Shown here in pieces: positions 7,721 to 26,288 of a stretch of 35,259 bases of DNA. Source of the stretch: Cellvibrionales bacterium (GTDB lineage: Bacteria; Pseudomonadota; Gammaproteobacteria; Pseudomonadales; JAHEIH01); assembly GCA_024639455.1 (NCBI GenBank), contig JAHEIH010000013.1, positions 1 to 35,259 of the forward strand, read 5' to 3'. The notes beneath the pieces are model-generated. The model saw only the letters and a list, made by a program, of their open reading frames with translations. It ran no database searches and was not told the origin of the DNA. Position 1 is the first letter of the stretch. Every line of letters begins with the position of its first letter. The position numbers and the translations under genes were made by a program.

Positions 7721-8389
7721 ATGGGTCAGAAAGTACACCCAACCGGTATCCGTCTGGGTATTGTGAAAGATCATACCTCGGTATGGTATGCGAACAGCAA
7801 AGATTACGCTGGTAAATTGATCAATGACTTGCAGGTACGTGAGTTTTTGAACAAGCAGCTGGAAAACGCTTCGGTTAGCCGTATCGTTATCGAGCGCCCT
7901 GCGCAAACTGCTCGCATTACTATTCACACTGCCCGTCCCGGCATTGTTATCGGTAAGAAAGGCGAAGACGTTGATAAGTTGCGTCGCACTCTGTCAGAGA
8001 TGATGGGCGTGCCTGTGCATATCAACATCGAAGAGATCCGCAAGCCAGACTTGGATGCCAAGTTGGTTGCGCAAAACGTTGCCCAGCAATTGGAGCGTCG
8101 TGTTATGTTCCGTCGCGCTATGAAGCGCGTCGTTCAAAACGCCATGCGTCAAGGCGCTGAAGGTATCAAGGTTCAAGTAGGCGGCCGTCTTGGCGGTGCT
8201 GAAATCGCACGTACCGAATGGTACCGCGAAGGTCGTGTGCCTCTGCACACCCTGCGTGCCGATATCGATTACGCAACTTACGAAGCGTCAACCACCTACG
8301 GTGTGATCGGCGTTAAAGTTTGGATTTTCAAAGGCGAAGTTCTGGGTGGCGAAAGCAATGAAGCCGCTAAGAAAAAAGCGAGTAATTAA
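7721..8389 (+). CDS. rpsC: 30S ribosomal protein S3
   Basis: 222 residues. The N-terminal type II KH domain carries [15 protein letters not shown], and the C-terminal domain has [21 protein letters not shown]3 shapes the mRNA entry channel together with S4 and S5. AGGAG lies just upstream of the ATG. Confidence 0.98.
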
Positions 8390-8400
8390 GGGCTAAGCAG

Positions 8401-8814
8401 ATGTTACAACCCAAGCGCACAAAATTTCGCAAGATGCAGAAAGGCCGCAACCGCGGTCTGGCTCTTCGCGGTAGCAAAGTAAGTTTTGGCGAATACGCGT
8501 TGAAATCAGTTGGTCGTGGTCGTATCACCGCACGTCAGATCGAATCTGCACGTCGTGCCATGACTCGTCACATTAAACGTGGCGGTAAAATCTGGATTCG
8601 CGTATTCCCCGACAAGCCAATCACTGGTAAGCCTCTTGAGGTACGTCAGGGTAAAGGTAAGGGTAACGTTGAGTACTGGGTGGCACAGATCCAACCAGGA
8701 AAAGTGTTGTACGAAGTAGAAGGTGTTTCTGAAGAGTTGGCTCGTGAAGCGTTCTCTCTGGCTGCGGCTAAATTGCCAGTTGCTACTGCCTTCGTTAAAC
8801 GTCAGGTGATGTAA
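8401..8814 (+). CDS. rplP: 50S ribosomal protein L16
   Basis: 137 residues starting [20 protein letters not shown], with the conserved [14 protein letters not shown] loop near the A-site tRNA elbow. The stop codon shares a base with the next start (TAATG), so L16 and L29 are coupled. Confidence 0.98.
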
Positions 8815-9005
8815 TGAAAGCTAGTGAATTGCGTGAAAAATCCGTTGAGGAATTGAACGGTCAACTGCTCACTTTGTTGGAGCAGCAATTTAAACTTCGC
8901 ATGCAGCAATCGACTGGGCAATTGGCACAGACACACTTGCTGAAAGCGAACAAGCAAGATGTTGCGCGCGTGCGCACTATCTTGAACGAGAAGGCAGGTA
9001 GTTAA
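8814..9005 (+). CDS. rpmC: 50S ribosomal protein L29
   Basis: 63 residues forming a helical hairpin ([20 protein letters not shown] and [18 protein letters not shown]). This is the usual size. L29 lies beside L23 near the exit tunnel. Confidence 0.96.
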
Positions 9006-9006
9006 G

Positions 9007-9270
9007 ATGGCTGAGCAAAAAGTAACTCGTACTCTGACTGGTAAAGTAGTCAGCGACAAGATGGATAAAACCATCACTGTTTTGGTCGAGCGTCGCGAGA
9101 AGCACCCTGTTTACGGCAAGTACGTAACTCGTTCTTCTAAAGTACACGCGCACGATGAAAACAATGCGTGCAAAATCGGCGACACCGTTACTGTCAAAGA
9201 AACCCGTCCCTACTCTAAGTCAAAGTGCTGGGCTCTGGTTTCAATCGATAGCAACGCTGTTGAAGCCTAA
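9007..9270 (+). CDS. rpsQ: 30S ribosomal protein S17
   Basis: 87 residues starting [20 protein letters not shown], with the OB-fold segment [20 protein letters not shown]17 is an early-binding protein of the 30S body. Only one base separates it from rpmC. Confidence 0.97.
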
Positions 9271-9300
9271 GTTGCTGTAACAGTTATTGAGGAATAGACA

Positions 9301-9669
9301 ATGATTCAAACTCAATCGTACTTAAATGTTGCAGATAACACTGGCGCTCGCCGCGTTATGTGCATCAAGGTATTGGGCGGTTCGCACCGTCGCTATGCCA
9401 AAGTTGGTGACCTTATCAAGGTCAGTATTAAAGAAGCCAGCCCTCGTGGTCGCGTTAAGAAAGGTCAGGTGATGAATGCTGTTGTGGTTCGCACCAAGAA
9501 AGGTGTTCGTCGTCCAGACGGTTCACTGATCAAATTCGACGACAACGCTGCAGTGTTGCTGAACACTAACCTTGCGCCTATCGGTACCCGTATTTTTGGT
9601 CCCGTAACTCGCGAGTTGCGTTCAGAGAAGTTCATGAAGATTATTTCTTTGGCTCCTGAAGTATTGTAA
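9301..9669 (+). CDS. rplN: 50S ribosomal protein L14
   Basis: 122 residues, starting [20 protein letters not shown] and containing [21 protein letters not shown]14 helps form intersubunit bridges and is the target of the silencing factor RsfS. In E. coli this gene opens the separately transcribed spc operon. Here only 30 bases precede it, so S10 and spc genes are probably read as one transcript. Confidence 0.98.
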
Positions 9670-9696
9670 TCAGGAACAGGGGTAGGGGATAAGCAA

Positions 9697-10011
9697 ATGC
9701 TTAAAATTAAACGTGACGATGATGTAGTAGTCATCGCAGGTAAAGACAAAGGCAAGCGTGGCAAAGTTGTTCGCGTGCTTGATAACGGCAAAATGATCGT
9801 TTCTGGCATCAACATGGTTAAGCGCCACACTAAGCCTAATCCGCAAGCAGGTATCGCTGGCGGTATCGTTGAGAAAGAAGCAGCAATTGATTCGTCAAAC
9901 ATTGCTATTTTCAACGCTGCCACAGGTAAAGCTGACCGCGTTGGTTTCAAAGTGGACGGTGATGCCAAAGTTCGCGTCTTCAAGTCAACTGGCGAAGCGA
10001 TTGACGCTTAA
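9697..10011 (+). CDS. rplX: 50S ribosomal protein L24
   Basis: 104 residues with an N-terminal KOW motif ([18 protein letters not shown]) and [19 protein letters not shown]24 is one of the two assembly-initiator proteins of the 50S subunit. Confidence 0.97.
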
Positions 10012-10025
10012 TTTAGGTGATGACA

Positions 10026-10562
10026 ATGGCGAATTTGAAAAAAGTATACAACAACGAACTTGCTGCCAAGCTCAAAGAAGAACTCGGCTTAAGCAATGTA
10101 ATGGAAGTGCCCCGCATTACCAAAATCACTTTGAATATGGGTGTTGGTGAAGCATTAGGCGACAAAAAGGCATTGGAAAATGCTCTGGCTGACCTCGAGA
10201 AAATCGCTGGTCAAAAGCCTGTCGTAACCTTGGCGCGTAAATCTATCGCGGGCTTTAAAGTTCGTGAAGGTTGGCCCATCGGTTGCAAAGTAACTCTGCG
10301 TCGCGAGCGTATGTATGAGTTCCTGGAGCGCTTGATTTCTATCTCAATCCCTCGTATTCGTGACTTTCGCGGTGTGAGTGCTAAGTCTTTCGATGGCCGT
10401 GGTAACTTTGCTATGGGTGTAAATGAGCAAATCATTTTCCCAGAGATCGATTACGACAAAGTCGACAAGCTGCGCGGATTGGATATTGCAATTACAACAA
10501 CTGCCCGTACCGATGAAGAAGGTCGTGCACTGTTGAAAGCATTTAACTTTCCCTTTAAGTAA
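10026..10562 (+). CDS. rplE: 50S ribosomal protein L5
   Basis: 178 residues with [36 protein letters not shown] and [15 protein letters not shown]5 carries 5S rRNA with L18 and L25. I place the start at the ATG giving [11 protein letters not shown] because TAGGTGA lies six bases before it and its length matches the E. coli protein. An ATG three codons upstream is possible but badly spaced. Confidence 0.97.
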
Positions 10563-10604
10563 GTAGTTAACAGCTTCCAGAAACGAGGCTAAAGGTAAAA
10601 GATT

Positions 10605-10910
10605 ATGGCAAAGCAATCGATGATTGCGCGCGAAGCAAAGCGTGAAAAAACTGTAGCGAAATTCGCTGCGAAGCGTGAAATGTTGAAAGCGATCCTGAAA
10701 GACGTGAACGCTAGCGAAGATGAAAAGTGGGATGCACAAGTTGCTCTGCAAAAAATGCCCCGCGATGCTAGCCCTGTGCGTATCCAGCGTCGCTGCAAAG
10801 TGACTGGCCGCCCTCACGCGGTCTACCGCAAGTTCGGTTTGTGCCGTAACAAATTGCGTGAAGCGGCTATGCGCGGCGACGTGCCTGGCCTCGTTAAGTC
10901 TAGTTGGTAA
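10605..10910 (+). CDS. rpsN: 30S ribosomal protein S14 (zinc-free form)
   Basis: 101 residues, the long form without the paired CxxC zinc knuckle of short S14; the core is [20 protein letters not shown] and the end [18 protein letters not shown]14 is a late-assembling protein of the 30S head. The zinc-free form means this copy does not depend on zinc supply. Confidence 0.97.
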
Positions 10911-18734: not shown

Positions 18735-18875
18735 TTGCACATTTTTGGTGCGTCTCGTGCTTGTGCGTGGTGCTTGATGCCTTTTACTGATCTCAAAAGC
18801 TACTAATGTCGGTGGATTTTTTGGGCATTGATTTTGCAATCCTTTGTGATGTTACCCACATCGTTTTGGAGCGCT

Positions 18876-20405
18876 ATGAAAACCTTTCTCCCCTTTAAAG
18901 TTGGCCAATGCCTTCAGCCAGGTACACACAGCACGGCGGCTGAAGGATTTTCATTCCATATTCCACAAGGGGATGCCTTGATTAAAAAAGGCGCGGTCTT
19001 TGTTTTTGTCTCAAGTACGGACGTCGACGCCGATAGTCGTGCGATCGCACAGCGCTTGGTCAATGATTACAGTGCGACGTCACAAGTGTGGTCTGTGACT
19101 GAGGCCATTGAACGGGTAATGGCAGTGGCTGATGCTTTTTTGGCGGGGTGCAGCTTTACAATGCTGGTTATCAAAGGTGCCACTGCGCACATTGTGCAGC
19201 ATGGCAATACGGCGTTGATACATTATGGTGAAGGTGGTTCGGCGTGTTTGTCGAACACGGACGGGCATCGCATTAAAAAGTTGGCTATCGCCGCGGGCGA
19301 GGTGTTTTGTTTGGCGCCCATTGTGATACGGGAAAAACTTATGTCCTCGCCCATTATCGATTGTATTAAAGCTAAGGAAGAGGATTTAAATCACACAGCG
19401 TTTGGCATGACGCGTGTGCTTGAGACTCGTGGTTCCGAGCTCTGCCACAGCGTAGCGTTAATTGAGCTGGTCGATCTGCCACAAGCACTCATAAAAGAGG
19501 CGGCTGAAACTGTTTGCTCGCCCCCCGTGTTGGTTGAGGACGATATCTATGAAGGGTATCGTGTCCTGTCTTTGCTTAGCGAAAGTACGCGCAGTCGCGT
19601 TTATCGAGTGACTGACGGCGCTATTGAATTTGCCTTGAAATGCCCATCCACCGAGCTTGAGCCGCGCCAAGAGCGCGAAGCCTTTTTATTGCAAGAGTGG
19701 CTGCTGCAACGGTTAGATCATCCCGCCATTGTTTCTTCGGTGCCACAACAAACAAATCGCCAATCGCTGTATCTGCTAACACCATTTGTCGATGCGCCGC
19801 CGTTAGGGCAATGGCTGGCAGCACACGAACCAACGTTAGCGCGCGTAATGGATGTGATAGATCAGTTGGGCAAGGCCTTGTTGAGCATGCATCGCGCCGG
19901 TGTTTTCTATCGCGCGCTGTCGCTCGATAATTGTTTAATTAGCCGCGACGACCGTGTCTCAATTATCGATATGAGTGCTGCGTATGTGCGCGGGATAGGG
20001 GCTTGTGGGCCTATTCCCCAAGAGTTGATGGGCACCACGCTTTTGGCGCCCGAGTTGGCACGTGGTGAGCCTGGTACAGAGGCTAGCGATCAGTACATGC
20101 TCGCGGCACTCATGTATAACGTGTTAAGCAAGGGTAAGGCGCCCTCGCCGCAAGGTTATACCCCTCTCGCGCCGTTTAACGCTCAGCTTTCTCCGTGGAT
20201 TGATGAGTGTTTACAAAAAGCCCTCTGCGATGACCCGCTGTGTCGTTATGGTGATGTGGCTGAGTTTATCCATGCTTTAAAACACCCTGCGCCGAAGCGT
20301 CATGAAGTACCCATAAGTCGCCGTTTACCGGTGGGATTTTGGCAAGTGCTTGCGGTTATCTTGGGGATCGGTTGGTTAATGACGCTTATTGTATGGTGGC
20401 GTTAA
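18876..20405 (+). CDS. Degenerate PP2C phosphatase-protein kinase fusion with C-terminal anchor
   Basis: 509 residues. The first about 230 resemble the PP2C half of the kinase/phosphatase fusion found beside nitrate-assimilation genes in Pseudomonas: SRAIAQRLVNDYSATSQVWS aligns with that family, but the metal-binding ADG and GD motifs are gone (SSTDVDADS, HGNTALIHYG). A protein-kinase fold follows from about 235 to 480. Lys255 (FALK) is kept; the catalytic HRD loop reads YRALSLDN, with the catalytic Asp replaced by Ala347; the DFG motif reads DMS (Asp365). One membrane helix ends the chain (about 485-506), so both domains face the cytoplasm. Probably a membrane-bound double pseudoenzyme acting as scaffold or sensor. 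Start chosen at the ATG with GGAG upstream. No nitrate genes are near. Confidence 0.75.
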   Translation: MKTFLPFKVGQCLQPGTHSTAAEGFSFHIPQGDALIKKGAVFVFVSSTDVDADSRAIAQRLVNDYSATSQVWSVTEAIERVMAVADAFLAGCSFTMLVIKGATAHIVQHGNTALIHYGEGGSACLSNTDGHRIKKLAIAAGEVFCLAPIVIREKLMSSPIIDCIKAKEEDLNHTAFGMTRVLETRGSELCHSVALIELVDLPQALIKEAAETVCSPPVLVEDDIYEGYRVLSLLSESTRSRVYRVTDGAIEFALKCPSTELEPRQEREAFLLQEWLLQRLDHPAIVSSVPQQTNRQSLYLLTPFVDAPPLGQWLAAHEPTLARVMDVIDQLGKALLSMHRAGVFYRALSLDNCLISRDDRVSIIDMSAAYVRGIGACGPIPQELMGTTLLAPELARGEPGTEASDQYMLAALMYNVLSKGKAPSPQGYTPLAPFNAQLSPWIDECLQKALCDDPLCRYGDVAEFIHALKHPAPKRHEVPISRRLPVGFWQVLAVILGIGWLMTLIVWWR

Positions 20406-20514
20406 GCATGAACGAAAAATGAGTGGAAATAAAATAGGTTTGTGACTATTCTGAATTGGAAACATCGCTGAGCCATATGGACAGTGCCTCACTCAAATAA
20501 TTTTTTGCCGCACT

Positions 20515-22953
20515 ATGGTCAATGTCGTTTCTTTGCCCCCTAAGCCTCAATCAGCGCAGCCCTGGCGTCGCTGGTTCGGCTTTATTCTGCCTAACCCTGA
20601 GTTAGACGATGCCCAGCGCGACGCGCGTTACTGGTCGGCGGATATCGCCGCCGCCATGTCGGTGTTGGCGGTTATGCTGTTTGCCATGATCAACCTTATC
20701 GCGGTGCGTTGGCCCTGGGCAGCGTTCGAGATTTTTGACGGTTTTTTACTGCTTACCTTTGTATTGTACCCCTTGGTATGGGCGTTATACCGTTGGCTGG
20801 GGCGCCGTGAGTCGCTGTTGTTTTACTTCTTTGTAATGCTAGTATTTGCCATAGCTGCTGGTTTTAGTATCAAGGGTTTGGCGGCCACAGGTAGCTTACT
20901 GCTTGGTGTGGTTTTAGCCCGCCTACTTTTACCTCGACACCAGGCGTGGTGGATCTGTCTGGCTGGCTTGTGCGTCACTCTTATATATTGGTTGGGAATC
21001 AGTCACAGTGACCTATTGCAAAATGCCATTGTTTATCGTGTGTTAGTGGTCAGCTTTGTGGTTTTTACTGTCATGGACGCCGTGTATGCCAGGGCGAACC
21101 AGGGGTTGGTTGTCAGTCATCTCACGGGTATGCGCAGGCTATGGCAGGTGACGGGTGTAACAACGCTGTGTATCTGGATCTTGGGAGAATTCACTGATTT
21201 CCCTATGAATTCGATGTTGGTCATCATATTCAACGGCATCGCCCTGCTATGGTTTATAGCTGAACGATTGTTAAAGCCGTTTATGGGTCTTTTCCTATTT
21301 GCTCTTATTGCCCTTGTCATGCAGTCGTTTCAGGCCCTAAATTCCAGTAATTTGGCACTACCCTATGCGATATTAGCCGTTTTGGCCATGTCGCTGGCGT
21401 TTCCGCTCGGCCTTTTTGTTATAGGTACGGTCGCGATCGTGGTGCTTAATTCCTCGCTGTATATCATGCACGACCATCTGACTCTTGATAGCTTGTATGC
21501 CCGCTTCATGCTGGGGGCCTTTTTCTGTATGCCATTAACGATGTTAGTTCACGGATTTTTTGTACCGAGTGTGATGCAGCCATTGACCAATATGTTGCGC
21601 GACAATACTTGTCGGCAGCGATTTTTCAAGCGTACCTTGCTAGGGTTGGGGGCGGTCCTTATTTTAGTCTCCCCTGTGCTCATCGCTATGCCCACCGAGT
21701 CGTTTTTAGTGCGCTTTATGTCGTCGAGTATTAGCTGGTTCTGGTGGTGGACCATTGCCCTCACTGTGATCATGGTCAGCGCCATACTGGTGATGAGAAT
21801 CAAACGCAGCCATGAACTTTCGCAATTACTCTTGCTGGCACAACAAGACAATGAAGTAAAGTCCATGTTTGTAGAAAACATGAGTCACGATATTCGCACA
21901 CCTATGAATGGCTTGCTCGGTATGCTGCAAGTGCTTGAGCTAGATACGTCATTGAACACTCAGGTGGCTAAGCGCTTAACAACGATTAAACAAAGTAGCA
22001 TGCAGTTATTGCATTTGGTCGATGATATTTCCGATATTGGTCGCATTGAACGCGGTGAGTTGCAAATGCACGTTGAACCGTTTGATTTGTCGGCATGGCT
22101 CATTGGGCAGCTCGACCTCCAGCGTCAAAAAGCTGTGAAAGCCGGGGTTGTATTGTTGATCGACAGGCAGATCGACATACCCTGTTGGGTGGTGGGTGAC
22201 GCGTTTAGGTTGGGGCAAATTCTCGATAATTTGGTCGGTAATGCCATTAAGTTCTCGCCGGGTGGCATTGTTCAAATAGATCTGCGCTTCCGCAGTGGGA
22301 TCTTTGAGCTGCGGGTGGCAGATGATGGTATTGGTATGGACAAAGCCACCTTGGCGCGTATTTTTAATCGCTTCGAACAGGGCGATGTCGGCTATACCAA
22401 ACGTTTTCAGGGGCTAGGCTTGGGGTTGGCAATTGTCAGTGAACTTTTGCAATTGATGGGCGGCGAATTACAGGCCGATTCAACCCCTTGCGAAGGCAGT
22501 GTTTTTAAGGTTTGCCTGCCCTTGCCGGTTGCACAACCTGTCGATGGCGCGCCGAGTATGCCCTCTTCTGAGTCTTTACTCGGTTCCCTTGCTGTGCTGG
22601 TAGTCGATGACGACGAGGTCAATGTATTGGCGCTTGAGGCCATGCTGTCCGGTAGCGTTGGTCAAGTATTTAAGGCGCAGCGTGGCCACGAAGCACTCGA
22701 GTGTTTAGCGCAACACGCGATAGACGTGGTGATTACTGATATTGATATGCCTGAAATGAATGGTGAGCAATTGTTGCGCCTCGTTAAGCAGCAGTATGCC
22801 GTGCCTGTGATTGCCATCACTGGCCATGCTACAACTGACGAATTGCAGCGCTTTCAACGTGTAGGGTTTGAGGTTGTGCTCAGTAAGCCACTGCTGCGTC
22901 AGCACTTGCTAGACACCCTAGCCAGGGTAGGTAAGGGTGTTGTGCATGCGTAA
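20515..22953 (+). CDS. Membrane hybrid histidine kinase with receiver domain
   Basis: 812 residues. About a dozen hydrophobic segments fill residues 45-430 with no clear periplasmic sensor domain. Then come HisKA (MSHDIRTPMNG, phospho-acceptor His458), the ATPase domain (N box DNLVGNAIKFS with Asn576, G1 VADDGIGMDKAT, G2 GLGLGLAIVSEL) and a receiver (VVDDDEVN, phospho-acceptor Asp742 in ITDIDMPEMNG, Thr in AITGHA, Lys in LSKP). All catalytic residues are present. Output must be through another protein, since no DNA-binding or HPt domain is attached. No good Shine-Dalgarno sequence precedes the ATG, so the exact start is uncertain. It overlaps the next kinase gene, to which it is paralogous (shared RLL-PR-WW/YW and GMRRL-like stretches in the membrane part). 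Confidence 0.92.
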   Translation: MVNVVSLPPKPQSAQPWRRWFGFILPNPELDDAQRDARYWSADIAAAMSVLAVMLFAMINLIAVRWPWAAFEIFDGFLLLTFVLYPLVWALYRWLGRRESLLFYFFVMLVFAIAAGFSIKGLAATGSLLLGVVLARLLLPRHQAWWICLAGLCVTLIYWLGISHSDLLQNAIVYRVLVVSFVVFTVMDAVYARANQGLVVSHLTGMRRLWQVTGVTTLCIWILGEFTDFPMNSMLVIIFNGIALLWFIAERLLKPFMGLFLFALIALVMQSFQALNSSNLALPYAILAVLAMSLAFPLGLFVIGTVAIVVLNSSLYIMHDHLTLDSLYARFMLGAFFCMPLTMLVHGFFVPSVMQPLTNMLRDNTCRQRFFKRTLLGLGAVLILVSPVLIAMPTESFLVRFMSSSISWFWWWTIALTVIMVSAILVMRIKRSHELSQLLLLAQQDNEVKSMFVENMSHDIRTPMNGLLGMLQVLELDTSLNTQVAKRLTTIKQSSMQLLHLVDDISDIGRIERGELQMHVEPFDLSAWLIGQLDLQRQKAVKAGVVLLIDRQIDIPCWVVGDAFRLGQILDNLVGNAIKFSPGGIVQIDLRFRSGIFELRVADDGIGMDKATLARIFNRFEQGDVGYTKRFQGLGLGLAIVSELLQLMGGELQADSTPCEGSVFKVCLPLPVAQPVDGAPSMPSSESLLGSLAVLVVDDDEVNVLALEAMLSGSVGQVFKAQRGHEALECLAQHAIDVVITDIDMPEMNGEQLLRLVKQQYAVPVIAITGHATTDELQRFQRVGFEVVLSKPLLRQHLLDTLARVGKGVVHA

Positions 22954-24931
22954 TTCGCGTCTACTCTCCGTGTGGCTGCCTGACACATTGCGCGACAAGG
23001 CGGAAGCGCCAATGCGCAAGCGAGCATTTAATGCCTTCGTGCAGTGTTTTAGTGCCATTGTGACTCTTATTTTGTTCTATATGGTATTCAATAATGCCCC
23101 TCTGGAAGTTTTTCGGGGAGTCATCCCTTGGGCGTTTCCACTTTTCGTGCTGACCATCATGGGGCGTGTGGTTTTTCGTCTAGCTGGGCAGATCGAGTGG
23201 TTTTTTACGGGTATTTTTTTCTTGTCTGCCTTAACGCCTTGGTCCAGTGTCCCTTCGCAGGGGGTGGCACCCTTCGGCATGTTACTCACCGTTGCCGGGG
23301 CTGTTCGATTATTACAGCCTCGCTATAAAGCCTATTGGCTATTGCTTTTGATACTGTTGTCATTTCTCTGCCAGTTGCCTCAACTCACGATGTCCGAGAT
23401 GATGACCGCGCTTCGTTATCTGTTAGGAAGTGTTGCCTTTTTTCTGTTGTTTGACTTTGCCTTAGTCACAAAGCGGCTTGGCCAAGCCGGGCGAGTCTTA
23501 GCTACGATGCGCCGTTTAGCCTTGGGGCTGTCCATATTATTTTCGGCGAACTTAGTCGCGGCATTCTGGCAGTGGGACATGGCCTCAGTGTTATTGGATA
23601 CCGCAGTGGTGTTGTTATGGCCGTTGTGGCTTTTGCTGCGACGGTGGTTGAATCCGCCGGTGGTCGCCGTGGTGGTGTGTGTGATATTGGTTGTGGTCCA
23701 TATGATTGCCCTTTTCACCTTAGGGGCGCGCGCGTTTGCCTTTGCCGCGTCCATTTATCTGTTGTTATATGTGCTGTTACCCCCACGTTTTTTCTGGGGA
23801 TTTTTTGTGGTGATGTATGTGACTGATATCACCTTCTTGTTGGCAAGCCACGAGCAATTAAATGAGCAACTGTTGTTTCGTCAGGGGTTGAGTATGCTGC
23901 TGGTGGGTTCGATGATTGTGCTTGTGCAGCCTATGCGCCGGTTTTTATCGCGCGGAACCCAAAAACCCCCCATCGAGGCATGGTGGCAGCCAGATATCAA
24001 GTGGCGGCTACTCGGCTACTTTGCCCTCTGCATCATAGTGATCTTGTTACTGGCCGTCCCTCTTCTATTGTTGGCCCACGCAGATCGCGCAGTGGTAAAT
24101 CTCAATGAGCTACTTCTGCTGTATTGTCTGCTCAGTGTTGCCGCTTGGGTCGCGTGGTTGGCGGCGCACTCTCATCGTCAAGAAAAGGCTATTCTTGCCT
24201 ACACTGAGGCCGCTCGACAAGCGAGCCAGGCGAAACAGCAATTTATGAGCAACATGAGTCATGAAATGCGCACCCCGCTCAATGGTATTTTGGGGATGAT
24301 TCAAGTATTGAAATTCGAGCTCGATCTTAGCCCTAAGCAGCAGGCATATGTTCAGCTGTTACATCGCGCCGGAGACAGTTTACACCGTTTGGTGGAAGAA
24401 ACGCTCGACATGACGCGTATTGAACGTGGTAAGTTTGCCCTAAGCCGTGAGCCGTTCATGCTTAACGACTGCTTGCAGGCCCTGCAACAGCAGCTTAGAG
24501 ATGACGCGCCAGCAATAGCCGCCAATTTACGTCTACACGACCGCTTACCGAGTGGTGTGATGCTGCACAGTGACAAAGACCGGCTGATTCAGGCGCTCGA
24601 TATTGTGATACGCGACATGTTAAGTAGCGAGGCCGTTGCTGCGCTTGATGTTGAGGTGAGACTTGAAGAGGGTAAGGTTGTATTGAGTTTTAAACAACAA
24701 GGCCCGCGCTGGGAAGACAGCCAGCGTGACGCTTGGCAGCAATGGCAGGCTCGTAGCGATAGTAGCGTGGGACTGTCGATAGCGTTTGAGATCTTTAAGC
24801 AAATGGACGCGACCTTCACTATTGCTGCCCATCCTGTGGCAGGGGTGAATCTGCATCGGTTGGTACTGCCCTTGGCGCTCTCAATGATTCGTGACCAAGC
24901 CAGCCAGGAGGCGCCGTTGCCTCGTCGTTAG
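22946..24931 (+). CDS. Membrane histidine kinase paralogue with eroded ATP-binding domain
   Basis: 661 residues, starting at an ATG that overlaps the stop of the upstream kinase gene, so translation is probably coupled. The membrane part (about ten segments) resembles the upstream kinase. HisKA is intact: MSNMSHEMRTPLNGILGMIQ with His439. The ATPase region is not. Aligning QALDIVIRDML with QILDNLVGNAI of the neighbour puts Asp557 in place of the essential Asn; the G1 box reads KQQGPRW instead of DxGxG; G2 is reduced to SSVGLSIAFEIF. It may be phosphorylated by its paralogue in a heterodimer, or pass phosphate on, without binding ATP itself. A TAG ends it, and the same frame continues into a receiver domain. 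Confidence 0.85.
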   Translation: MRNSRLLSVWLPDTLRDKAEAPMRKRAFNAFVQCFSAIVTLILFYMVFNNAPLEVFRGVIPWAFPLFVLTIMGRVVFRLAGQIEWFFTGIFFLSALTPWSSVPSQGVAPFGMLLTVAGAVRLLQPRYKAYWLLLLILLSFLCQLPQLTMSEMMTALRYLLGSVAFFLLFDFALVTKRLGQAGRVLATMRRLALGLSILFSANLVAAFWQWDMASVLLDTAVVLLWPLWLLLRRWLNPPVVAVVVCVILVVVHMIALFTLGARAFAFAASIYLLLYVLLPPRFFWGFFVVMYVTDITFLLASHEQLNEQLLFRQGLSMLLVGSMIVLVQPMRRFLSRGTQKPPIEAWWQPDIKWRLLGYFALCIIVILLLAVPLLLLAHADRAVVNLNELLLLYCLLSVAAWVAWLAAHSHRQEKAILAYTEAARQASQAKQQFMSNMSHEMRTPLNGILGMIQVLKFELDLSPKQQAYVQLLHRAGDSLHRLVEETLDMTRIERGKFALSREPFMLNDCLQALQQQLRDDAPAIAANLRLHDRLPSGVMLHSDKDRLIQALDIVIRDMLSSEAVAALDVEVRLEEGKVVLSFKQQGPRWEDSQRDAWQQWQARSDSSVGLSIAFEIFKQMDATFTIAAHPVAGVNLHRLVLPLALSMIRDQASQEAPLPRR

Positions 24932-25309
24932 TTGTCTTCCTTAGCCGAAGCCTTGGTGTTGGTGGTGGATAACGATGGAACCAATCGTTTGGTCATGCAA
25001 ATGGGTTTGTCGCCACACGTGGCAAAGGTGTTTTTAGCCGAGAATGCCGAGCAAGCCCTGCAGCTACTGGAGCCACAACCGGTCCACTTGGTGCTGTCTG
25101 ATATTTCTATGCCGGGCATGGGTGGCGAAGCCTTGTTGAATGCCCTTGCTGAGCGCCAACCCGATCTCCCCGTGATGGCGTTAACAGGTAATGCATCGCC
25201 ACAAGATATCACGTACTATCACAGCGAAGGTTTTATTGGCGTTGTTGCAAAACCTGTGGTGTTTGAGGCGTTGATCCAAAAGATTCAGCGTATTTTGTTG
25301 CCCAAATAA
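24932..25309 (+). CDS. Receiver domain, separated from the upstream kinase by one in-frame stop
   Basis: 125 residues comprising a single REC domain: acid pair Asp13 and Asp15 (VVDNDG), phospho-acceptor Asp57 in LVLSDISMPGMGG, Thr in ALTGNA, Lys in VAKP. The residues for phosphorylation are all there. It follows the TAG of the kinase gene directly and in the same frame. A separate start would have to be the TTG right after the stop, with AGGAGG about 20 bases upstream, which is too far for good initiation. The neighbouring paralogue has kinase and receiver in one chain, so this is most likely the receiver half of a split hybrid kinase; a split gene, readthrough and sequencing error are all possible. 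Confidence 0.75.
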   Translation: MSSLAEALVLVVDNDGTNRLVMQMGLSPHVAKVFLAENAEQALQLLEPQPVHLVLSDISMPGMGGEALLNALAERQPDLPVMALTGNASPQDITYYHSEGFIGVVAKPVVFEALIQKIQRILLPK

Positions 25310-25376
25310 TCACCGGATAAAGGTATGTCATTGAGCGGCGTAAACCCAACCTCTGGTTTTGCATAGGGTCGAATAG

Positions 25377-26288
25377 ATGCTATTACCCTTGGTGACCCAC
25401 CCGAGTTACAGTTATGTGTTTCCTGAGAAGCATCGCTTTGCGATGGATAAGTTTGGGCGCTTAGCAAGTTATTTGCGTGAGCGGGGAATATTACGTGCCG
25501 ATAATCTCTATCGCCCTGGCATATGTAAAACGGCGTGGTTAGAGGCGGTGCATTGTCCTGACTATATCGAACGTTTTCGCAGCGGGCGTTTAACCCGTGT
25601 TGAAGAACGCCGGCTGAATCTGCCTTGGAGTGAAGGGCTCGTTAAGCGGACCTTTATTTCCCCTGCGGGTACGGTATTGGCTGCCCAGCTTGCGCTACAT
25701 ACGGGTATGGCTTGTCATTTAGCAGGCGGGACACACCACGCTCACTATGACCACGCTTCAGGTTTTTGTGTATTTAATGATTTGGCCATGACCGCCAAGG
25801 TCTTGTTGAAGCATAGTGGTATTGAACGCGTATTGATCTTTGACTGTGACGTTCACCAAGGCGATGGCACCGCTCTGTTGTTAGCCAACGAGCCTCGCGC
25901 GTTTACCTGCTCCATTCACTGCGGTAAAAACTTTCCCTTTACCAAGCAGTTGAGTGACGTGGATGTTGAGCTCGATGATGGCATGAGTGACGACGAGTAT
26001 TTGGCAGTGGTGCAAGATACGTTGTGGCAGGTGCTAGATTCATTCCGGCCGCAGATTGTGCTTTATGATGCGGGCGTAGATGTTTATCAGCAGGATCCCT
26101 TAGGGCGCCTGAACATCAGTTTGGCGGGCATTCGTGCGCGCGATGAATACGTGCTGAAAACCTTGTTGGATCGAGCAATACCCGTGGCGACGGTGATTGG
26201 TGGCGGCTATGACGACGATCGCTCAGCGTTAGCGAAACGCCACGCTATCGCGGTTGAAGTGGCGCACGAATTGATGATGACTCGCTAA
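25377..26288 (+). CDS. Histone-deacetylase-family protein (arginase/deacetylase fold)
   Basis: 303 residues of the HDAC / acetoin-utilisation / acetylpolyamine amidohydrolase superfamily. The active site is complete: GGTHHAHYDH with His120 and His121, FDCDVHQGDG with zinc ligands Asp158 and His160, third ligand Asp240 in QQDPLGRL, and the catalytic-type Tyr278 in GGGYDDD. The short form and GGTHHAH resemble the HDAC11-like (class IV) bacterial group. The substrate (acetyl-lysine, acetylpolyamine or another amide) cannot be told from sequence. It is cytoplasmic, with no signal peptide. It follows the kinase-receiver genes by 67 bases on the same strand and may belong to their unit. Confidence 0.88.
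   Translation: MLLPLVTHPSYSYVFPEKHRFAMDKFGRLASYLRERGILRADNLYRPGICKTAWLEAVHCPDYIERFRSGRLTRVEERRLNLPWSEGLVKRTFISPAGTVLAAQLALHTGMACHLAGGTHHAHYDHASGFCVFNDLAMTAKVLLKHSGIERVLIFDCDVHQGDGTALLLANEPRAFTCSIHCGKNFPFTKQLSDVDVELDDGMSDDEYLAVVQDTLWQVLDSFRPQIVLYDAGVDVYQQDPLGRLNISLAGIRARDEYVLKTLLDRAIPVATVIGGGYDDDRSALAKRHAIAVEVAHELMMTR

Follow-up and report, generated by a model that had tools for sequence, protein, structure and literature searches.

Gene order and the in-frame stop

The window, that is the whole stretch of 35,259 nucleotides analysed here, is an entire contig (C2) of a 2.88 Mb genome assembled in 29 contigs and 99.5% complete. It carries, in one direction, a Ser/Thr kinase-like gene, the genes P0001, P0002 and P0003, and a gene of the histone-deacetylase family (Table 1). 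In P0001 a membrane part is followed by HisKA, HATPase_c and receiver domains, and the N, G1 and G2 motifs are present. The ATG assigned to P0002 overlaps the P0001 stop by 8 nt; an alternative GTG start at 22937 would give an ORF of 664 aa (22937-24931).

Table 1. Features of the P0001-P0003 region (positions in the window)
Feature	Position	Strand	Basis or remark
Ser/Thr kinase-like gene	18828-20405		same direction as P0001-P0003
P0001, intact hybrid sensor histidine kinase, 812 aa	20515-22953	+	Pfam HisKA, HATPase_c, Response_reg
P0002, membrane-bound predicted pseudo-histidine kinase, 661 aa from ATG	22946-24931	+	ORFs, Pfam, alignment
P0002 H-box M-S-H-E-M-R-T-P	24254-24277	+	phospho-acceptor His and HExxT stretch intact
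P0002 degenerate ATP-binding region (N box, G1, lid, G2 lost)	24572-24787	+	alignment with 27 other kinases; no HATPase_c match
AGGAGG	24906-24911	+	sole + strand copy in the window
In-frame TTG, 5 nt past AGGAGG	24917-24919	+	4-codon reading, ends at TAG
In-frame TAG in the kinase-receiver linker	24929-24931	+
P0003, 125-aa receiver domain, TTG start adjoining the stop	24932-25309	+	ORF, Pfam, residue comparison
Histone-deacetylase-family gene	25377-26288		same direction as P0001-P0003

A sequence-only reading of this DNA had proposed that a TAG ends the sensor frame and that a complete receiver follows in the same frame, and this is confirmed: TTG adjoins the TAG and the receiver ORF runs to 25309. 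Read jointly from ATG 22946, the frame has 787 codons and a single stop. Once X had been put in place of the stop, the joint frame aligned with the 812-aa P0001 from residue 14 to 786 (26% identity, E 8e-48), and thus along its length, although its membrane part matches P0001 weakly. When P0001 was used as the query against its own genome, P0002 and P0003 appeared joined as one place with one TAG. The TAG falls in the part of the alignment that corresponds to the linker between the domains, and the linker stretch after the stop, LSSLA in the pair, is similar to LGSLA of P0001. This linker makes up 22 of the 787 codons (2.8%); the codons that lie one step from a stop number 228 in the joint frame and 8 in the linker, the TAG itself counted.

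A stop inside a frame colinear with a hybrid kinase is an unusual feature here. Not one internal stop occurs among the 150 matches listed, of 327, to the kinase-receiver part of P0001 (37 genomes, E<=1e-30), some of which cover the kinase core only and among which the P0002/P0003 pair does not appear. At E<=1e-15, 2 of 40 places in two genomes of the family had an internal stop, namely P0002/P0003 and a candidate place with a TAA at C333 of the same-genus genome, and a receiver search added one further candidate place with one TAA, on C13 of the source genome. An internal TAA in another receiver (C27, L007) proved on reading to be an ordinary gene end. The next-codon, same-frame arrangement is unremarkable in itself, since in 36 of 276 genes sampled from 340 kb the frame stays open for 100 codons or longer beyond the stop; a start codon stands directly after the stop in 12 of the 276, and 3 of these 12 open a long frame. 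The sample was drawn by a longest-ORF rule from ORFs of at least 120 aa; of the 284 chosen, 8 were discarded because their codon score was low.

The rarity of internal stops speaks for a sequencing or assembly error, for which a change of one base would be enough. The completeness and contiguity of the genome speak against it, as do the ribosomal-protein, secY and rpoA genes of the same contig, where each of the ten ORFs scanned in the cluster covers almost the full profile of its family. Such an error is possible but unsupported, and we rate it as highly unlikely.

Programmed readthrough of the TAG, which would yield some full-length hybrid besides the short form, had been offered as well, and found no positive support. 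The frame is open on both sides of the stop and colinear with a fused paralogue, as readthrough would have it. However, the 35 tRNA hits in the genome, two and a further three of which were read as neighbours, include no CUA anticodon; the TAG is followed by U, which makes an efficient termination context; TAG is a common normal stop, ending 72 of the 276 sampled genes; and no ortholog was found in which a conserved context could be seen. Taken together, readthrough appears very improbable. A suppressor tRNA or a general code change found no support in the same tRNA hits and the same use of TAG. Frameshifting or hopping over the TAG was likewise set aside, the receiver being in frame 0 and inspection having disclosed no matching landing codon. 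The predicted RNA structure at the junction was no better than that of shuffled sequences (z -0.57).

The receiver could also have been a separate single-domain gene beside the kinase at all times, never fused to it and sharing its frame by chance. Same-frame neighbours are indeed common, as the 36 sampled genes illustrate, and the tree of 27 receivers took in no stand-alone regulators: its rows all came from proteins found through kinase searches, so it does not address a never-fused origin. In this tree P0003 and P0001 fall into a group of 11 rows from the source genome and its genus, with a support of 92/81 that is below the starred level; the trees do not place P0001 and P0002/P0003 as sisters. 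Against chance stand the colinearity with P0001, which includes the linker stretch after the stop, and the own-genome search with P0003, whose seven best matches besides itself lie in long frames (559 to 1061 aa). We consider this the least probable of the explanations weighed here. Given the colinearity and the receiver matches in long frames, the ancestor of P0002/P0003 was probably a hybrid kinase. The earlier proposal of a hybrid now split stands to that extent; the three causes offered for the split (nonsense mutation, readthrough, sequencing error) are not fully separable.

A sensor core without ATP motifs and an altered receiver

The part upstream of the TAG had been called a histidine kinase, and the degeneration of its ATP-binding domain had gone unnoticed; it is not an intact one. 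Pfam places HisKA (PF00512) at residues 432-498 of P0002 (E 4.8e-19), but HATPase_c (PF02518), found in P0001, gave no Pfam match in P0002. Among 28 aligned kinases (L094 and L038, with unmatched H-boxes, were left out), P0002 alone lacks the N box, G1, the ATP lid and G2 together, as judged by inspection, and the phospho-acceptor His in MSHEMRTP is kept. From this alignment, P0002 is probably no longer able to bind ATP.

The AlphaFold model of the P0002 core, built on 4 sequences, has a kinase-core fold with a pLDDT of 74.5, model residues 181-199 and the tail being below 50; a full-length model was set aside for its pLDDT of 46.5. Foldseek with the core model returned GacS, the RetS-GacS complex and RetS as its first three PDB matches. 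GacS is an active kinase, and the fold match thus does not single out pseudokinases. With the core fold kept in the model and the ATP motifs lost, P0002 is a predicted pseudo-histidine kinase. Its codon score is 0.174 as a whole and 0.249 in the core; the membrane part scores 0.131, against 0.136 for the 5th percentile of genes, which may come from its hydrophobic composition.

P0003 matches Response_reg (PF00072) over residues 9-119 (E 6.3e-21), and its codon score of 0.364 is near the 75th percentile of the 276 genes (median 0.308). The sequence-only reading held the conserved residues of the receiver to be intact. The phospho-acceptor Asp, the Thr and the Lys are present, whereas the acidic pair is D-N, with Asn as one of its residues. 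An Asn in this pair occurs in only 1 of the 26 other receivers compared, a same-genus hybrid kinase that has E-N (L024). Judging from this substitution, Mg2+ binding by P0003 may be weaker than usual.

At its catalytic-loop position the Ser/Thr kinase-like gene of the window has YRALSLDN, the Marinimicrobium relative (L048) having HQDLRPAN, and it has IDMS where that relative has IDFG. By its sequence this gene looks catalytically disabled too, in which case two predicted pseudokinases would flank one active hybrid kinase, P0001.

Search for relatives

A scan of a genome contig collection with P0002 revealed no ortholog, records very near the source genome possibly being excluded from it. With the membrane part of P0002 as the query, 390 genomes of the order yielded matches in 2, the source genome itself and one with a weak partial match. 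That genome search did not return P0001 at E<=0.001, and the pairwise comparison of the P0001 and P0002 membrane parts gave E 4e-5 over 192 columns. A three-row profile matched the source genome alone among 369 genomes of the class; the profile is weak because L011, which supplied the third row, is not significantly similar in its membrane part to the other two rows, P0001 and P0002. L011 (788-2812) is a distant membrane kinase of the same genus, of similar length and with an intact ATP site, with no receiver and in another gene context. Neither membrane part was present at 80 named deacetylase loci, some of which were ended by contig ends. The 75% complete genome of the same genus contained no match to the neighbouring deacetylase and no close match to P0001.

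The best named relative of the deacetylase gene has 71% identity and belongs to Gammaproteobacteria bacterium LSUCC0057; the named relatives of this gene loosely place the source genome among the gammaproteobacteria. A Ser/Thr kinase-like gene was present at 1 of the 80 deacetylase loci. In Marinimicrobium agarilyticum (L048) such a gene (8178-9950) lies directly upstream of the deacetylase gene (10001-10903), unlike the window, in which P0001/P0002 and the receiver sit between the two. The promoter and terminator scan of 20300-25500 gave counts of 3 and 8, compared with 5.5 and 7.1 in shuffled sequences, hence no excess beyond noise. A literature search on gene fission found no report; one on hybrid kinases broken by a stop turned up a paper on rcsD of Yersinia pestis, and papers on single-domain receivers came to light as well.

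The main rival to a functional split is that a hybrid kinase gene on its way to being lost has recently acquired a nonsense mutation, the receiver being a remnant of which little or none is made. The degenerate ATP site of P0002 is consistent with such a loss, and so are the altered acidic pair of the receiver, the low codon score of the P0002 membrane part and an adjacent Ser/Thr kinase-like gene that also lacks catalytic residues. The lack of an ortholog, both with the membrane part in the order and with the three-row profile in the class, points the same way, as does the incomplete same-genus genome with neither a deacetylase match nor a close P0001 match. On the other side, no second stop occurs in the 787 codons, the codon score of the receiver is normal, and the stop lies in the linker with a start codon at once after it. 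The reading is open apart from the TAG although the ATP site is thoroughly altered, and long service as a pseudokinase therefore fits better than plain decay. All in all, loss seems to us unlikely, but it deserves to be taken seriously.

The start of the receiver and a possible coupled split

It had been stated that the receiver lacks a well-placed start. This is half right: a possible start codon is at hand in the TTG directly after the TAG, but the only + strand AGGAGG of the 35-kb window lies 20 nt upstream of TTG 24932, and 5 nt upstream of TTG 24917. TTG is a weak start codon. In the 340-kb sample, GGAG stands upstream of 37 of 185 ATG genes compared with 40 of 2581 internal ATG codons, which indicates that this genome uses Shine-Dalgarno sites, and in 33 of 38 cases the GGAG stands 5-8 nt from its start. 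By this rule, the AGGAGG suits TTG 24917, with its four-codon reading to the TAG, better than TTG 24932. Codons that are ATG, GTG or TTG account for 8.6% of internal codons in the sample. An AGGAGG within 26 nt upstream was found for 0.07% of 97,509 sampled internal codons and an in-frame AGGAGG-N4-9-start for 0 of 103,029 sampled gene codons, frequencies to be read with the fact that the site at the junction was looked for after the event. The AGGAGG may be there by chance, may help reinitiation, or may be the trace of an internal start in the fused gene.

An internal start of this kind has an explanation of its own, in which AGGAGG-N5-TTG 24917 serves a fused gene as an intragenic start for a free receiver, and the TAG, acquired later or a base error, prevents fusion and start alike. 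The spacing is typical of the genome, TTG 24917 is in frame with the receiver and no other AGGAGG lies on the + strand of the window. This account requires, however, that the TAG be recent or wrong, and the AGGAGG is perhaps a mere run of Gln-Glu-Ala codons in the linker. An internal start in ArcB has reportedly been detected by ribosome profiling; our literature search on internal starts yielded nothing fitting. We regard such an origin of the free receiver as improbable. A more elaborate possibility, somewhat less remote and still doubtful, is that selection has shaped the whole junction, AGGAGG-N5-TTG-(3 codons)-TAG-TTG, into a device by which the receiver of a hybrid pseudokinase is produced in diffusible form. 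Whether drawn in by the internal AGGAGG or arriving at the end of the pseudokinase, ribosomes would restart at the TTG by way of the tiny frame, and the junction would thereby determine how much membrane pseudokinase there is relative to free receiver in a complex of P0001, P0002 and P0003.

The distances between the genes are in keeping with translational coupling. Reinitiation has been reported to work across overlaps and very short distances, overlaps rather than gaps being the rule for coupled pairs; in three pairs of E. coli a distance of +2 nt reduced it by 5, 20 and 70%, and the candidate pairs of that study range from -8 to +6 nt (PMC10666635). P0002 and P0003, on one strand with a gap of 0 nt between stop and start, fall within this candidate range. 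The 8-nt overlap of P0001 and P0002 is an arrangement of the coupled-pair kind too, -8 nt being the third commonest overlap in the same study, where overlaps are the commonest form, unlike the 0-nt gap with TTG of P0003 (PMC10666635).

The explanation that we favour, tentatively and at a little under an even chance, is that the TAG is genuine and has cut what was once a hybrid sensor kinase into P0002, a pseudo-histidine kinase of the membrane, and P0003, a single-domain receiver set free. The two would share one operon, with P0003 as a translation-coupled second product, a possibility that the sequence-only reading had not considered. Ribosomes that end P0002 at the TAG would restart on the adjacent TTG by termination-reinitiation, perhaps aided by the AGGAGG just upstream. 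The position of the stop in the short linker, the TTG as the next codon and the normal codon score of the receiver argue for a coupled split, and zero-gap pairs have a precedent in the genome (the 3 of 276 sampled genes). Against it count the 20-nt spacing of the AGGAGG, the weak TTG start, the D-N acidic pair, the low codon score of the membrane part and its weak match to P0001, the trees without a sister relation to P0001 and the unremarkable RNA folding at the junction; none of the genomes searched yielded an ortholog split in this way. At the protein level, P0002 would pair with P0001, the active hybrid kinase, much as RetS pairs with GacS. It might modulate P0001, accept phosphoryl groups or remove them from the P0001 receiver, and the free P0003 might serve as an extra phosphoryl acceptor. 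Gene order and the 8-nt overlap are what suggests P0001 as the partner.

Among the closest known systems is RetS of Pseudomonas aeruginosa, partner and inhibitor of GacS; the kinase core of RetS, alone and in the complex with GacS, came up in the first PDB matches to the P0002 model. RetS has undergone some degree of loss at its ATP site. It is a membrane protein with its receivers fused, whereas P0003 has a frame of its own. RetS accepts phosphoryl groups from GacS, acts as a transmitter phosphatase on the GacS receiver and inhibits GacS autophosphorylation (PMC5992135). In Corynebacterium glutamicum, the pseudokinase variant of ChrS and HrrS resemble P0002 and P0001 as paralogous sensor kinases, one of which has a disabled CA domain, and the two form heterodimers; the ChrS variant arose by a laboratory-evolved frameshift and involves no split receiver (PMC9491836). 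RocA of group A Streptococcus is a natural membrane pseudokinase without CA residues, and interacts with the active kinase CovS (PMC7028121). It comes from a distant bacterium, its His is dispensable, and no receiver is mentioned in the part of that paper that was available (PMC7028121). P0002 may act on P0001 in the manner of RetS, RocA or the ChrS variant.

The elements of this locus (zero-gap pairs, pseudokinases, single receivers) have all been described before, and P0002/P0003 most likely represent a modest variation on known two-component signalling. If the TAG is a nonsense mutation in a fading gene, the case is an ordinary one. If the split is real and kept, the locus would capture, in nature, a hybrid kinase in the course of coming apart, in which the enzyme part has become a pseudokinase and the receiver has been freed with a coupled start, beside an active paralogue that the split kinase may regulate. 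It would then offer a small case of how pseudokinases and single-domain receivers arise.
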